A DNA stretch of 64,000 bases from Armatimonadota bacterium. Lineage in GTDB: Bacteria; Armatimonadota; HRBIN16. The stretch's first letter is position 1; each line of letters starts with the position of its first letter. The translations under genes were made by a program, and so were the position numbers. The notes below the pieces were generated by a model. The model ran no database searches. It saw only the letters and a program-made list of their open reading frames with translations, and was not told where the DNA came from. The DNA is taken from assembly GCA_026003175.1 (NCBI GenBank), contig BPGT01000001.1, forward strand, positions 1,216,839 to 1,280,838, in the 5' to 3' direction. This document shows positions 27,985-58,290 of the stretch, one piece after another.

Positions 27985-29097
27985 CTAACTCCTCCGAATC
28001 AAAGGGATGTGTCTCAGAAGCGTATGGTCGGCCATGCTATGGATACTGCATTGTGCTGCCAGCGCCTGTGCGATGCTGCGGAACGCCTTCGCCTGTGCCG
28101 ACTCCGGGTGCGCCACGATAGCGGGCACGCCTTCATCCCCGCTAAGCGAAATATTCGGGTCAAGAGGGATAGAACCGAGCAGGGGTACTCCCAGCCTCTC
28201 CGCGGCGTGCTCTCCGCCCCTGCCTGCAAACACGGAGGTCACCTCGCCACAGTGCGGGCAGGCAAAACCGGACATGTTCTCGATGATACCCAGTATGGGT
28301 ATCGGTCGCCCTAAGCCTTCTTCCAGCTTGCGGAACATGGCTACCGCCTTGCCTGCGATGGTAAACGCCACATCCTGCGGCGTCATCACGATAACGACGC
28401 CAGTGATAGGTACTGATTGCGACAGGGTCATGGGGGCATCGCCGGTGCCCGGTGGCAGATCCACCACCAGATAGTCTTTTTCACCCCATTCCACATCGGT
28501 AAGCAGTTGCCTGACCGTGCCTGCTACCATTGGACCTCGCCATATCACCGCCTGGTCATCGGGTAGCAGAAAGCCCAGCGACATCATCTGCACGCCATAG
28601 CGTTCGATAGGGATGATTTTATCGTTAATAACGTGCGGCGTTTCGCGCGTGCCCATGAGCAGCGGCACCGAGGGACCGTATATGTCTGCATCCAGCAAGC
28701 CTACTTTCGCGCCCAATTGCGCTAGTGCTACCGCAAGGTTGACCGCCACAGTGCTTTTGCCTACCCCACCTTTGCCACTGGCGACCGCTATCACGTGCTT
28801 TACACCGGGTAGCAGGTCTTCCGCACCGATTTGCCTGGAACGCACGCTTGCGGTCATCTCTACGTTAACCGACTTTACCCCCGGAATCCGCAGCACTGCC
28901 TGTGTGGCTTGTGATTTCATCAGGTCTTTGACGGGGCAGGCAGGAGTGGTTAGTTCTATCTTGAATGCGACATTGCCGTCGCAAATCTTGACGTCTTTTA
29001 CGAAGCCCAGGCTGACGATGTCGCGGCGCAGGTCAGGGTCTACCACCGAACGCAGCGCATCCAGTACCTGCTGCTCAGTGACGGTATGGTCGTTCAT
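27985..29097 (-). CDS. mrp: Mrp/ApbC family Fe-S cluster carrier ATPase
   Basis: 370 residues. An N-terminal MIP18/DUF59 domain (about 5-80: V-D-P-D-L-R-R-D-I-V-S-L-G-F-V) precedes the P-loop NTPase (A-S-G-K-G-G-V-G-K-S-T). The D-A-D-I-Y-G-P-S motif, the D-L-P-P-G-T-G-D switch and the C-P-H-C cluster-binding pair are all present. It delivers Fe-S clusters to target proteins. AAGGAG precedes the ATG, and its promoter region faces the MITE in the divergent intergenic space. First gene of mrp-nfo-moaD. Confidence 0.94.
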   Translation of the reverse strand: MNDHTVTEQQVLDALRSVVDPDLRRDIVSLGFVKDVKICDGNVAFKIELTTPACPVKDLMKSQATQAVLRIPGVKSVNVEMTASVRSRQIGAEDLLPGVKHVIAVASGKGGVGKSTVAVNLAVALAQLGAKVGLLDADIYGPSVPLLMGTRETPHVINDKIIPIERYGVQMMSLGFLLPDDQAVIWRGPMVAGTVRQLLTDVEWGEKDYLVVDLPPGTGDAPMTLSQSVPITGVVIVMTPQDVAFTIAGKAVAMFRKLEEGLGRPIPILGIIENMSGFACPHCGEVTSVFAGRGGEHAAERLGVPLLGSIPLDPNISLSGDEGVPAIVAHPESAQAKAFRSIAQALAAQCSIHSMADHTLLRHIPLIRRS

Positions 29098-29164
29098 TTT
29101 TCTGAACTCCTTGTGTCTTTAAGCACTTTTAACAGCATTGTACCCCGAAGCGTTCGGGAAGGCA

Positions 29165-29173
29165 AGCCTGTTG
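29165..29173 (+). repeat. Target-site duplication, left (MITE copy 1)
   Basis: AGCCTGTTG, repeated at 29360-29368 immediately after the element. Confidence 0.9.
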
Positions 29174-29359
29174 GAGGGTGTTCGAAATTGCTGGTTGAAT
29201 GGATAGATAACCTAACCCCCTTGCCCCCTTCCCTTGCAGGGAAGGGGGAACGCCCCTCTCCTCGTAGGAGAGGGGACGGGGGTGAGGTAAGGCAGGGATA
29301 GCAAGAACGCCTCTCTCCTTGCGCTACAACCAACTTCTCAACAATTCTCGAACACCCTC
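29174..29359 (+). mobile_element. MITE-like element, copy 1 (186 bp)
   Basis: Begins GAGGGTGTTCGAAATTGCTG and ends, read inwards from the other side, GAGGGTGTTCGAGAATTGTTG: about 20-bp imperfect terminal inverted repeats. AGCCTGTTG is duplicated exactly on both flanks (29165-29173 and 29360-29368). Inside lie two GC-rich hairpins, CCCTTCCCTTGCAGGGAAGGGG and CCCCTCTCCTCGTAGGAGAGGGG. No transposase is encoded. Copy 2 at 57561-57746 is the reverse complement with only a handful of differences. Confidence 0.92.
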
Positions 29360-29368
29360 AGCCTGTTG
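29360..29368 (+). repeat. Target-site duplication, right (MITE copy 1)
   Basis: AGCCTGTTG, identical to 29165-29173. Confidence 0.9.
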
Positions 29369-29453
29369 CCTTCTCAAGCAGGAAAACGGTCGGAACGGGC
29401 GAAGCATAATGACGGAGGCGAATAGAACGTTTGTGCAGAGGGAGGGTCACGTC

Positions 29454-30908
29454 ATGGTAAATCTTCCGCCCACAAAACTTGGACTAATTGCTGCAAACCG
29501 GGGCTTCTTCAGCGATGAACTCGCCGCGAAGATGCGCAATGAAACTATCGCCGCCATGCGCGAGGCGGGTATCGAGGTCGTCGTGCCTGACGAAAGCATG
29601 ACCAAACTGGGGTGTGTGGAAACGCTGAAGGAAGCCTATGTTGCAGGTAAACTCTTCCGGGAGCAAGCGGTAGATGGCATCGTGGTCGCTGCGGTGAACT
29701 TCGGCGACGAGCAGGGAGTTGCCGCCGCTGTCAAGACCGCCGACCTGAACGTGCCGATTTACATTTTCGGATGCCAGGAAGAAGAGGTACTCACTCCCAG
29801 CACGCCTCGGCGCGACTCGTTCTGTGGATTGCTTTCCATCGGTGAGGCGTTGCGCCAGCTGGGGGTGGATTACACTGTCGGACGAGTGCCGATCCTGTTT
29901 CCGCGCGAGGAGGCGTTTAAGAAAGACATCCAGCGTTTCGCCGCGGTGTGCCGTGTAGTCAACGGCATTCGCAAAGCGCGCTATGGGCAGATTGGCGCAC
30001 GCCCTGATGCCTTCTGGACGTGTCGCTATGATGAGAAGATGCTTCAGCGACTGGGACCGACAGTGGTGACTTTAGACCTGTCGGAGGCGATTGCAGGAGT
30101 GCAGCGCATTCCGGCAGACAGCGCGGAAGTGCAGCAGAAAATGCAACAGATTGCCCAATACGCCGATGCGAAGGGTGTGCCCGCTGAGGTGCTGAACAAG
30201 ATAGCACGCTTCGAACTGTTCGTCGAACGGTTTGTGGAGGAAAAGGGGTTGGATGCCCTGGCGATACAGTGCTGGACGTCTATCCAGATGAATCTGGGCA
30301 TCTGTACCTGCACCACCATGAGCCGACTGGGCGACCGAGGCATTCCGTGTGCGTGCGAGTCAGACATTATGGGCACGCTGTCTATGCACGCCGCGTTACT
30401 GGCTTCCGGCACGCCTGCTACCCTTGCCGACTGGAACAACCTGCATAACGAAGACCCTGAGCTGGCGAACCTGTGGCACTGCGGTGTCTATCCTGCTACC
30501 TTCGCCAAGACACCGCCGCGCATCGGTGTACAGGAGATTATCGCGACAAGCACGGGACGTGACAATGCTACTGGCGTGATTGAGTTCGAAGTAAAAGAGG
30601 GACCCATCACACTGTGTCGCATCACCCAGAGCGCGGACGGCGAGTGGAAAGCTGCACTGGCGCAGGGTACTATAGAGGAGAATCGGGCGAAAACCTTTGG
30701 CGCGTACGGCTGGTGTCGTATCCCCGGGCTACAGCGGTTCTATCGCGACGTGCTGTGCCGGCACTTCCCGCATCACGTGGCGATGACGCTGGGTTCCGTT
30801 GGCGACGTGCTGTGGGAAGCTTTGGGTAACTACTTTGGCATGGACGTGTACGCGCCCAATGCACATTCCGGCTACTGGACGCCTGAGCCACCGTTCTGGA
30901 ACGACTGA
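29454..30908 (+). CDS. L-fucose/L-arabinose isomerase family protein
   Basis: 484 residues. The chain resembles the FucI/AraA-type ketol isomerase fold: a Rossmann-like N-terminus (L-G-L-I-A-A-N-R-G-F-F), an E-R-F-V-E-E-K-G-L-D-A-L-A-I-Q-C-W core, G-I-P-C-A-C-E-S-D-I-M-G, and C-terminal H-H-V-A-M-T-L-G. These enzymes interconvert aldoses and ketoses with a divalent metal. No fucose kinase or aldolase is adjacent, so the substrate is open. ATG at 29454 has GGAGGG eight bases upstream; ATG at 29409 has none. Confidence 0.8.
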   Translation: MVNLPPTKLGLIAANRGFFSDELAAKMRNETIAAMREAGIEVVVPDESMTKLGCVETLKEAYVAGKLFREQAVDGIVVAAVNFGDEQGVAAAVKTADLNVPIYIFGCQEEEVLTPSTPRRDSFCGLLSIGEALRQLGVDYTVGRVPILFPREEAFKKDIQRFAAVCRVVNGIRKARYGQIGARPDAFWTCRYDEKMLQRLGPTVVTLDLSEAIAGVQRIPADSAEVQQKMQQIAQYADAKGVPAEVLNKIARFELFVERFVEEKGLDALAIQCWTSIQMNLGICTCTTMSRLGDRGIPCACESDIMGTLSMHAALLASGTPATLADWNNLHNEDPELANLWHCGVYPATFAKTPPRIGVQEIIATSTGRDNATGVIEFEVKEGPITLCRITQSADGEWKAALAQGTIEENRAKTFGAYGWCRIPGLQRFYRDVLCRHFPHHVAMTLGSVGDVLWEALGNYFGMDVYAPNAHSGYWTPEPPFWND

Positions 30909-56557: not shown

Positions 56558-57379
56558 CTAGCTCTCCTCGGTAGGAATGACCTGTGCGCTCAACCAGGCG
56601 TACGCCTTGATGGTTCCACCGGTGTGCGGTGTGCCTTCGATGTCCTCTTCCAGAGCGACCACATCCACACTGCCTCCGTAGGTGTCCACCAGCATCGCCA
56701 GAAAGTTCTTGCCGGTGTGAGGATTTTGTAGCCGGTGCAGTTCCACAATGCGGCCGGTCAGCAAGGCATAGTTCCCCGCCACGTTGTCGCTGGCGCCCTC
56801 GTTGATAGGCAACATCGCCTGCGGCGCGAGTCGCAGGGTGACCAGTTCGCCCGTCTCTTCGTCCTCGGTCTCCGTGAGGATGCTGTGGTCGGACTGCAGG
56901 TAGCTCTGCTCGTCGTCAAAGCACCATGCTTCCTGCGCAAAGGCGGCGATCTGCAGGGTGACCATGCGCGGCAATATCTTCCATGCGTGCAGGTGGGTGG
57001 AGAAGTCGCGCAGGTCTACACTGAAAGGATAATAGCCCGTCTCGGGGTCTTCCACGCTCAGAGGACTGCTCCAGCCGTACAACGCACCGGTGAGTTGTTC
57101 CTCGTCGTAGGGCACCATCTCCACCACCGCCGCCTGCATACGCCCTGCGCCGTTGTAGTGGGGTTCCAGGTCTACCACCTCTAGCGGGGCGGTTTGCGAG
57201 CCGGGTTCGGCTTTTCCGCCTTTCATCGCCAGCCATATCTGCGCTCCGTTAGGCGACTGCCACACGAAGTAAGCGCCATTCTCCACCTCATAGCCTTCGC
57301 TCTCCGTGAGGATGGTGTGGAGGGCGTTCACCAGAGATTGCGCCTCGTCGTAACCGAGGCATCGTGCGTGGGTTATCAT
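56558..57379 (-). CDS. Conserved protein of unknown function (273 residues)
   Basis: Not recognised. The chain is acidic and soluble, no signal peptide. It has Y-F-V-W-Q-S-P-N-G-A-Q-I-W-L-A, a central W-S-S-P-L-S-V-E-D-P-E-T-G-Y-Y-P-F, and near the end N-Y-A-L-L-T-G-R-I-V-E-L-H-R-L-Q-N-P-H-T-G-K-N-F and T-Y-G-G-S-V-D-V-V-A-L. The last block resembles an OB-fold-like strand pattern, but I would not assign it. GGAG precedes the ATG. Gap of 33 bases to surE downstream, on the same strand. Confidence 0.65.
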   Translation of the reverse strand: MITHARCLGYDEAQSLVNALHTILTESEGYEVENGAYFVWQSPNGAQIWLAMKGGKAEPGSQTAPLEVVDLEPHYNGAGRMQAAVVEMVPYDEEQLTGALYGWSSPLSVEDPETGYYPFSVDLRDFSTHLHAWKILPRMVTLQIAAFAQEAWCFDDEQSYLQSDHSILTETEDEETGELVTLRLAPQAMLPINEGASDNVAGNYALLTGRIVELHRLQNPHTGKNFLAMLVDTYGGSVDVVALEEDIEGTPHTGGTIKAYAWLSAQVIPTEES

Positions 57380-57551
57380 GATGTATCAGGCTCCTTTCAC
57401 CCGCCGGGCATCTGTCACATCCTATGCAAGGAGGGCGAGACGCACTGGGGGATTTTCTTTTGTGCATATGACAGAAGTTCATTCGTAGCGAGCCCGTTCG
57501 ATTCCTGCACGCAGGGACGCGGCAGGATGATTTTTGGCACGGAGAAAGCAG

Positions 57552-57560
57552 GGAAAACCT
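57552..57560 (+). repeat. Target-site duplication, left (MITE copy 2)
   Basis: GGAAAACCT, repeated at 57747-57755. Confidence 0.9.
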
Positions 57561-57746
57561 GAGGGTGTTCGAGAATTGTTGAAAAGTTGGTTGTAGCGCA
57601 AGGAGAGAGGCGTTCTTGCTATCCCTGCCTTACCTCACCCCCGTCCCCTCTCCTGCGAGGAGAGGGGCGTTCCCTCTTCCCTTGCAGGGAAGGGGGCAAG
57701 GGGGTTAGGTTATCTATCCATTCAACCAGCAATTTCGAACACCCTC
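57561..57746 (-). mobile_element. MITE-like element, copy 2 (186 bp)
   Basis: The reverse complement of copy 1 (29174-29359) at the same length, with only a handful of substitutions clustered in the GC-rich hairpins. Terminal inverted repeats are GAGGGTGTTCGAGAATTGTT and GAGGGTGTTCGAAATTGCTG (read inward from the other end). Flanked by the perfect 9-bp duplication GGAAAACCT. It encodes no transposase. Its right-hand duplication touches the -35 box of the next gene's promoter. Confidence 0.92.
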
Positions 57747-57755
57747 GGAAAACCT
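57747..57755 (+). repeat. Target-site duplication, right (MITE copy 2)
   Basis: GGAAAACCT, identical to 57552-57560. Its last base is the first T of the -35 box TTGACT. Confidence 0.9.
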
Positions 57756-57782
57756 TGACTTTTTTTTTCGATGGGGTAGAAT
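57755..57782 (+). promoter_or_regulatory. Sigma-70-type promoter directly beside the MITE
   Basis: TTGACT (57755-57760), a 16-base spacer and TAGAAT (57777-57782), 35 bases upstream of the ATG at 57817. Confidence 0.75.
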
Positions 57783-57816
57783 GTAGGTGCAATCTAGCCT
57801 AAGGAGGGTTACAATC

Positions 57817-58290
57817 ATGGTAAGAACAGTGTTTTGGCTTGTGGTATCACTAGTTTTGCTGTTTTTTACGGAAGCCCGCGCGCAGTACCAGGGCTATCTT
57901 CCCGTTCAGACTGGAGGATGTGAGCAGACACCAGTCACTTTCCGAAGCAATACATGGGGAGAGTACATAATATGGCAACGCGACATGGACACATGGTTGG
58001 TAGGTTACCCGCCGTATCAGCGTGAAATGCAAGTAGTGGACACTACATGCTATCTGGGGTATCGGTTGCGCGAGTCAAGGCCGTACTGGTGGGTAAACCG
58101 CTACGAGATCACTCTTGCCGCGTTAAACAATGATGGTACGTACCGATGGCGGTTCGATGGCAGAGCGAGGTCGGTGAATGCGCGCAGTCGGTATGAAGAC
58201 CATTTCTTCCTGGTGAACCAGCGAGATAGCCTTGACATCTATAGGGACCCTGATCTGGGCGTCACGCAAGTGGTTGATGTCGATCCATAA
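57817..58290 (+). CDS. Small exported protein of unknown function
   Basis: 157 residues, no family recognised. A signal peptide (MVRTVFWLVVSLVLLFFTEARAQ) precedes a domain with two cysteines (G-G-C-E-Q and T-T-C-Y-L-G) that may form a disulfide, rich in W and Y (W-G-E-Y-I-I-W-Q-R-D, Y-W-W-V-N-R-Y-E-I). ATG at 57817 has AAGGAGG upstream. It shares a transcript with the next secreted protein, 22 bases downstream. Confidence 0.7.
   Translation: MVRTVFWLVVSLVLLFFTEARAQYQGYLPVQTGGCEQTPVTFRSNTWGEYIIWQRDMDTWLVGYPPYQREMQVVDTTCYLGYRLRESRPYWWVNRYEITLAALNNDGTYRWRFDGRARSVNARSRYEDHFFLVNQRDSLDIYRDPDLGVTQVVDVDP

Follow-up and report, generated by a model that had tools for sequence, protein, structure and literature searches.

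Two nearly identical repeats of 186 bp lie in opposite orientation in the window, the whole 64,000-nt stretch of DNA that was analyzed, and they raise the questions of what moved them and how their insertion sites were chosen.

Two copies of a MITE in the window

The sequence-only reading had described near-identical copies with inverted ends, each bordered by a perfect 9-bp duplication, and the exact coordinates agree with that description. The copies differ from each other at 6 of 186 positions. Both start with GAGGGTGTTCGA and end with TCGAACACCCTC, and their terminal inverted repeats (TIRs) are identical over 12 bp and imperfect beyond. The duplication is AGCCTGTTG on both sides of copy 1 and GGAAAACCT on both sides of copy 2.

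29174..29359, plus strand: MITE copy 1 (186 bp), from alignment to the genomic copies
29174..29185, plus strand: left TIR GAGGGTGTTCGA; the same 12 bp form one end of the autonomous IS
29348..29359, minus strand: right TIR of copy 1
29165..29173, no strand: target duplication AGCCTGTTG, promoter-side copy; single at the empty site in genome G009
29360..29368, no strand: target duplication AGCCTGTTG, far copy
57561..57746, minus strand: MITE copy 2 (186 bp), from alignment to the genomic copies
57552..57560, no strand: target duplication GGAAAACCT, far copy
57747..57755, no strand: target duplication GGAAAACCT, promoter-side copy; empty site in genome G002

With a length of 186 bp, no coding capacity and a perfect 12-bp TIR, the repeat has the features of a MITE. 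Its computed folding energy is -96 kcal/mol (z -7.6), and an Rfam search of the window found no RNA families. Copy 2 carries three substitutions relative to the genomic consensus, and the sole difference of copy 1 is a hairpin loop in inverted form (TTGCA/TGCAA) at element positions 62-64 (window 29235-29237; CCCTTGCAGGG against CCCTGCAAGGG), which suggests that the loop was flipped by recombination or templated repair.

The core of the MITE (element positions 36-115, window 29209-29288) is an 80-bp double-hairpin repeat. Other species of the genus carry this repeat as a free-standing sequence, frequently in tandem copies, and parts of it extend to further families of the phylum; a general intergenic repeat seems to have been captured between IS ends to give the MITE. 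A long ORF at 29319-30908, a fucose-isomerase-like gene, starts within copy 1, and the true start of this gene probably lies downstream of the MITE.

Genomic copies and the autonomous partner

When the 4.1-Mb genome (7 contigs) was scanned, the 12-mer end occurred 213 times and its reversed control once, which shows that the repeat is not due to chance. About 105 MITE copies were collected with their flanks and aligned. Perfect duplications of 9 bp were found at 61 of the aligned copies, of 10 bp at 11 and of 11-12 bp at 5; a duplication with one mismatch was present at 6, and none was detected by a simple test at 22, several of which sit in arrays, composites or rearranged copies. Copies with duplications, which the sequence-only reading had proposed to look for across the genome, are thus the majority. 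Its suggestion of recent activity also held, since 50 of the 93 full-length copies were identical to the consensus and 28 more had one base changed.

The same reading had placed the autonomous element outside the window, and an IS with matching ends and intact transposase genes was indeed found in the same genome. Tracing the ends that occur outside the 186-bp copies revealed a longer element of 1012 bp that contains one ORF of 323 aa and terminates in GAGGGTGTTCAAAAAATCGG and GAGGGTGTTCGAAAAATCGCA. Four copies are intact (C2:990699, C2:1115564, C3:98548 and C3:231276), five copies of 989 bp have lost 23 bp and the reading frame, and further derivatives measure 564, 292 and 117 bp. Target sites are also occupied by IS copies with frameshifts or deletions, some of them bordered by clear duplications, as is expected for movement in trans. 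Because the ends match and intact transposase genes are present in the same genome, the 186-bp MITE is most likely moved in trans by this IS.

The 323-aa transposase matched DDE_Tnp_1 with 30.9 bits (cut-off 23, E=2.8e-7) and the IS5_2 NCBIfam model with 39.1 bits, far below the cut-off of 140. Reading by eye located an R(3)E(6)K signature (R256, E260 and K267), with the tyrosine of Y(2)R(3)E(6)K not in place. The protein is predicted to be a DDE-type transposase that is distantly IS5-like. A PDB sequence search with the transposase profile gave no convincing match, and a structure prediction for a transposase homologue from two sequences (pLDDT 35) was too poor to inform. Among 291 genomes of the phylum, the transposase occurs in two families only; homologues were present in the MAGs Fimbriimonadales bacterium KatS3mg016, Fimbriimonadales SKYB70 and Armatimonadetes bacterium JP3_11, which points to Armatimonadota as the phylum of the genome.

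Empty sites in related genomes

Orthologous loci in relatives carry a single copy of the duplication at both window sites, so that the empty sites anticipated by the sequence-only reading exist and neither locus is one where the element is ancestral. At the copy 1 locus in G009, the two matches overlap by exactly 9 bp, which corresponds to a single target copy, and the element is also absent from this locus in other relatives of the genus. CTTGCCT and TACAAT are kept there in the relatives (one has TTGTCT), and the upstream DNA diverges. At the copy 2 locus, G002 has an empty site, the alignment shows the same for G003 and G009, and G004 carries the element.

The copy 2 locus (window 57161-58146) is 97% identical to G004 C2:787465-788450 (L214), element included, whereas identity to G004 falls to about 80% at the copy 1 locus. 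This difference may reflect recent gene flow between the two species.

Position of insertions relative to promoters

Both window copies lie beside promoter-like sequences, with the following features.

29160..29165, minus strand: -35 box TTGCCT of the copy 1 target promoter, conserved in relatives with the empty site
29137..29142, minus strand: -10 box TACAAT of the copy 1 promoter, spacer 17 bp, conserved in relatives
27985..29097, minus strand: gene of the copy 1 promoter, Mrp/ApbC-type iron-sulfur P-loop NTPase (Pfam PF10609, E=1.2e-98, and PF01883)
57755..57760, plus strand: -35 box TTGACT of the copy 2 target promoter, conserved in G002 and G003
57777..57782, plus strand: -10 box TAGAAT of the copy 2 promoter, spacer 16 bp, from sequence and the alignment of relatives
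57817..58290, plus strand: gene of the copy 2 promoter, 157 aa; no Pfam match for a slightly longer ORF

We scored 96 insertion units for the five positions TGACA directly after the duplication. All five matched in 54 units and four in 29; in these 83 of 96 units, the last base of the duplication is the first base of a TTGAC[A/T]-like motif. About 12 units would be expected to match by chance, as a rough estimate given the placements allowed, and about 13 units lack a good TTGAC match. At the 68 sites in the 9-bp register, the base frequencies were T 0.88, T 0.93, G 1.0, A 0.94, C 1.0 and A/T 0.97, values that are somewhat inflated because the sites were registered on the motif itself. TTGAC was ruled out as a part of the element, since the motif is already present at empty sites.

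The target logo is asymmetric: it has no signal across the cut on the far side and a second peak 17-18 bp further along, which corresponds to a -10 box. A symmetric target was rejected, as the logo is one-sided and no palindrome was found. A -10 box with a score above 4 bits was present at 72 of 82 unique sites (88%), with a spacer of 17 bp at 39 sites and 18 bp at 31 (17 or 18 at 70 of 72). The MITE and the IS are thus inserted approximately 8 bp upstream of the -35 box of predicted sigma-70 promoters, which are left intact. These promoters, whose activity we infer from sequence and conservation, include eight that precede tRNA genes, the tRNA starting 48-58 bp beyond the element; a sense ORF lies within 300 nt at 79 of the 82 sites, a count that has no control for comparison.

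Promoter recognition or hexamer recognition

As a control, we used a 464-kb sample that consisted of the window plus 20 segments of 20 kb each, distributed over the contigs, in which intergenic DNA was defined by a simple ORF rule and TTGACH occurred 478 times outside element flanks. A -10 box followed 68 of 76 occupied TTGACH sites (89%) but only 21 of 55 unoccupied intergenic sites (38%; Fisher 7e-10) and 26 of 423 unoccupied sites within ORFs. This enrichment implies that more than the hexamer matters, or that selection is finer than modelled. Selection against insertions within genes does contribute to the pattern, and the intergenic control corrects for it as far as the ORF rule allows. 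By sequence criteria, the insertions sit at a fixed distance from putative promoters beyond what the hexamer would lead us to expect.

These data bear on the possibility that the transposase sees only TTGACW and that the link to promoters is a by-product of where harmless TTGACW sites occur. Strong conservation within the target is confined to the motif, and approximately 10% of the TTGAC sites have no -10 box, which indicates that a full promoter is not strictly required. The promoter-side cut also falls within the -35 box itself, and sigma bound at that box should be an obstacle to cutting. Nevertheless, hexamer recognition does not account for the difference between 38% and 89%, and several sites with the imperfect hexamers TTGCCT, GTGACA, ATGACA and GTGACT keep good -10 boxes at 17-18 bp. 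We therefore regard recognition of the hexamer by itself as rather unlikely. The transposase very likely reads TTGACW directly, and promoter context is likely to contribute further to target choice.

Selection could also act after the event, if insertion were random and copies upstream of promoters were retained, perhaps as hairpin insulators against upstream transcription. The strong fold of the MITE (-96 kcal/mol, z -7.6) could provide such insulation; however, a position exact to the base pair (in most units the 9-bp duplication ends on the first T of TTGAC) is hardly selectable, the same duplication around successive different elements is hardly explained, and the coding IS has the same aim as the MITE. 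We consider retention by selection after random insertion very improbable.

Site re-use, composites and exchanges

Some promoters have been entered more than once. In arrays such as AGTCA-ACGGACACG-E-ACGGACACG-E-ACGGACACG, one duplication is present three times. At C2:1115367, the 11-bp duplication CTTGAATCTCT borders and separates a MITE and an intact IS and is likewise present three times; because the elements differ and the duplication is shared, two insertions must have occurred into one promoter, the second of them promoter-proximal.

The 9-bp spacers serve as barcodes of element pairs. The pair with the spacer ACGGACACG (C1:864899) recurs inside C1:241404 with the new outer duplication AGGTTTACC, and the composite M-TCGAGCTCT-IS at C4:148700 has the new outer duplication TTTCCCTCT, and its spacer is identical to the duplication that flanks a solo copy at C3:468321. 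A swap of flanks between copies explains some atypical units: C1:810321 and C3:231038, both without a duplication, carry each other's flanks, a configuration that we read as reciprocal recombination between MITE copies and thus as a large chromosome rearrangement.

Replication slippage or unequal crossing-over, rather than repeated insertion, could in principle have produced the tandem arrays. A four-copy array (L063; G000 C1:796291-797033), which repeats about every 185 bp and in which left ends are damaged, fits this explanation and probably grew by unequal crossing-over, and slippage may account for arrays of identical units. The mixed array of MITE and IS at C2:1115367, however, cannot be produced by duplicating one unit, and as a general origin of the arrays we find slippage or crossing-over improbable.

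Related elements in other genomes

A 17-bp end pattern detected elements in 12 of 16 related genomes, and the reversed pattern was found in none. Among 106 ends in other genomes with enough flank, TTGAC was present at offset 6-11 in 36 (control offset, 1), a count in which at least one site appears twice; about half of the ends is the maximum expected, since only one end per insertion faces the promoter. A -10 box was present at 28 of these 36 ends. Related elements of about ten other genomes, in two families, show the same promoter aim in their flanks.

In addition, one orthologous promoter was entered independently in this genome (C4:58218) and in G004 (L156), where the duplications differ and the sequences are 93% identical from the -35 box on; a second independent pair was found in G201 and G196. 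The aim was weak or absent in G195, whose transposase is 44% identical. The loci L254-L273 of G195 hold its own short elements, which have the same ends and little promoter aim and would be useful for mapping the determinants of the target.

Proposed mechanism

We consider it highly probable that an IS and an IS-derived MITE are inserted by the IS transposase upstream of sigma-70 promoters, which serve as safe sites. The 186-bp MITE would be a non-autonomous derivative of the 1012-bp IS, and the DDE transposase encoded by the IS would bind the GAGGGTGTTCRA ends common to both and make a staggered cut of 9 bp (9-11), with the promoter-side break after the first T of a TTGACA-like -35 box. The element would come to rest approximately 8 bp upstream of an intact promoter; genes would remain uncut, the -35 box, spacer and -10 box would be kept, and only the DNA upstream of about -44 would be displaced. 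Because the promoter beside the new duplication is unchanged, it could be hit again, and repeated hits would yield E-TSD-E arrays with the newest element promoter-proximal, from which pairs of elements could then move as one composite.

Promoter recognition beyond the hexamer may operate through RNA polymerase and sigma or through open or bent promoter DNA. Sigma region 4 binds the -35 box, where the promoter-side cut falls, so the transposase would either read a naked -35 box, helped by open or bent DNA, or act with or just after the polymerase. We propose only tentatively, and with more doubt than confidence, that the transposase is steered to promoters by the transcription machinery, in the form of RNA polymerase-sigma that occupies the -35 and -10 boxes or is departing from them, with upstream insertion as a general safe site; such a system would be a bacterial counterpart of the tRNA-gene-targeting elements of yeast and Dictyostelium.

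An IS/MITE family that reads the -35 and -10 boxes and lands 8 bp upstream would be a natural promoter finder, with which active promoters could be located in phyla that have received little study. By a rough estimate, roughly one in four TTGACH promoters that can be recognised in the genome already has the element beside it. These findings show a route by which a selfish element can multiply to approximately 100 copies in a genome of 4 Mb while genes stay unbroken, and they make guidance of a transposase by RNA polymerase a testable question in bacteria.

Comparison with known systems

The element resembles other bacterial MITEs that are moved by an IS in that it is short and non-coding, has the TIRs of a resident IS and duplications, and is present in many near-identical copies; it differs from them in its very high specificity for the upstream edge of promoters and in the frequent re-use of sites. 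IS5 family and IS4-like DDE transposases produce 9-bp duplications, as in IS903. The partner IS is similar to these in its DDE_Tnp_1 domain, weak IS5_2 match, R(3)E(6)K spacing, ORF of approximately 320 codons and 9-bp duplication, but it scores 39 bits against the IS5_2 cut-off of 140, the Y of Y(2)R(3)E(6)K is not in place, and its target is TTGACW beside a -10 box.

No description of an IS or MITE that sits at a set distance ahead of a -35 box came up in a literature search with little coverage of subscription journals, which is therefore weak as evidence. Most bacterial ISs insert loosely. Choosy ISs are known to aim at repeats, at the ends of tRNA genes or glmS, or at short motifs (in part PMC1525189), and those known to target REP/PU sequences include IS1397, ISKpn1, IS621 and others (PMC1525189). 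Like the present element, the latter choose a repeated, harmless extragenic signal; however, their target is a palindromic repeat, whereas the element described here targets a single asymmetric promoter element. The Neisseria CREE is a MITE whose TA-containing duplications resemble the -10 hexamer (PMC9330008). CREE can create fusion promoters, whereas the present element keeps the whole promoter and sits upstream of the -35 box.

Ty1 and Ty3 and the Dictyostelium TRE5 are retroelements that insert upstream of Pol III genes and are guided by eukaryotic transcription factors. They share with the present element a harmless placement close to genes, tRNA genes included, at a short and constant distance on the upstream side.
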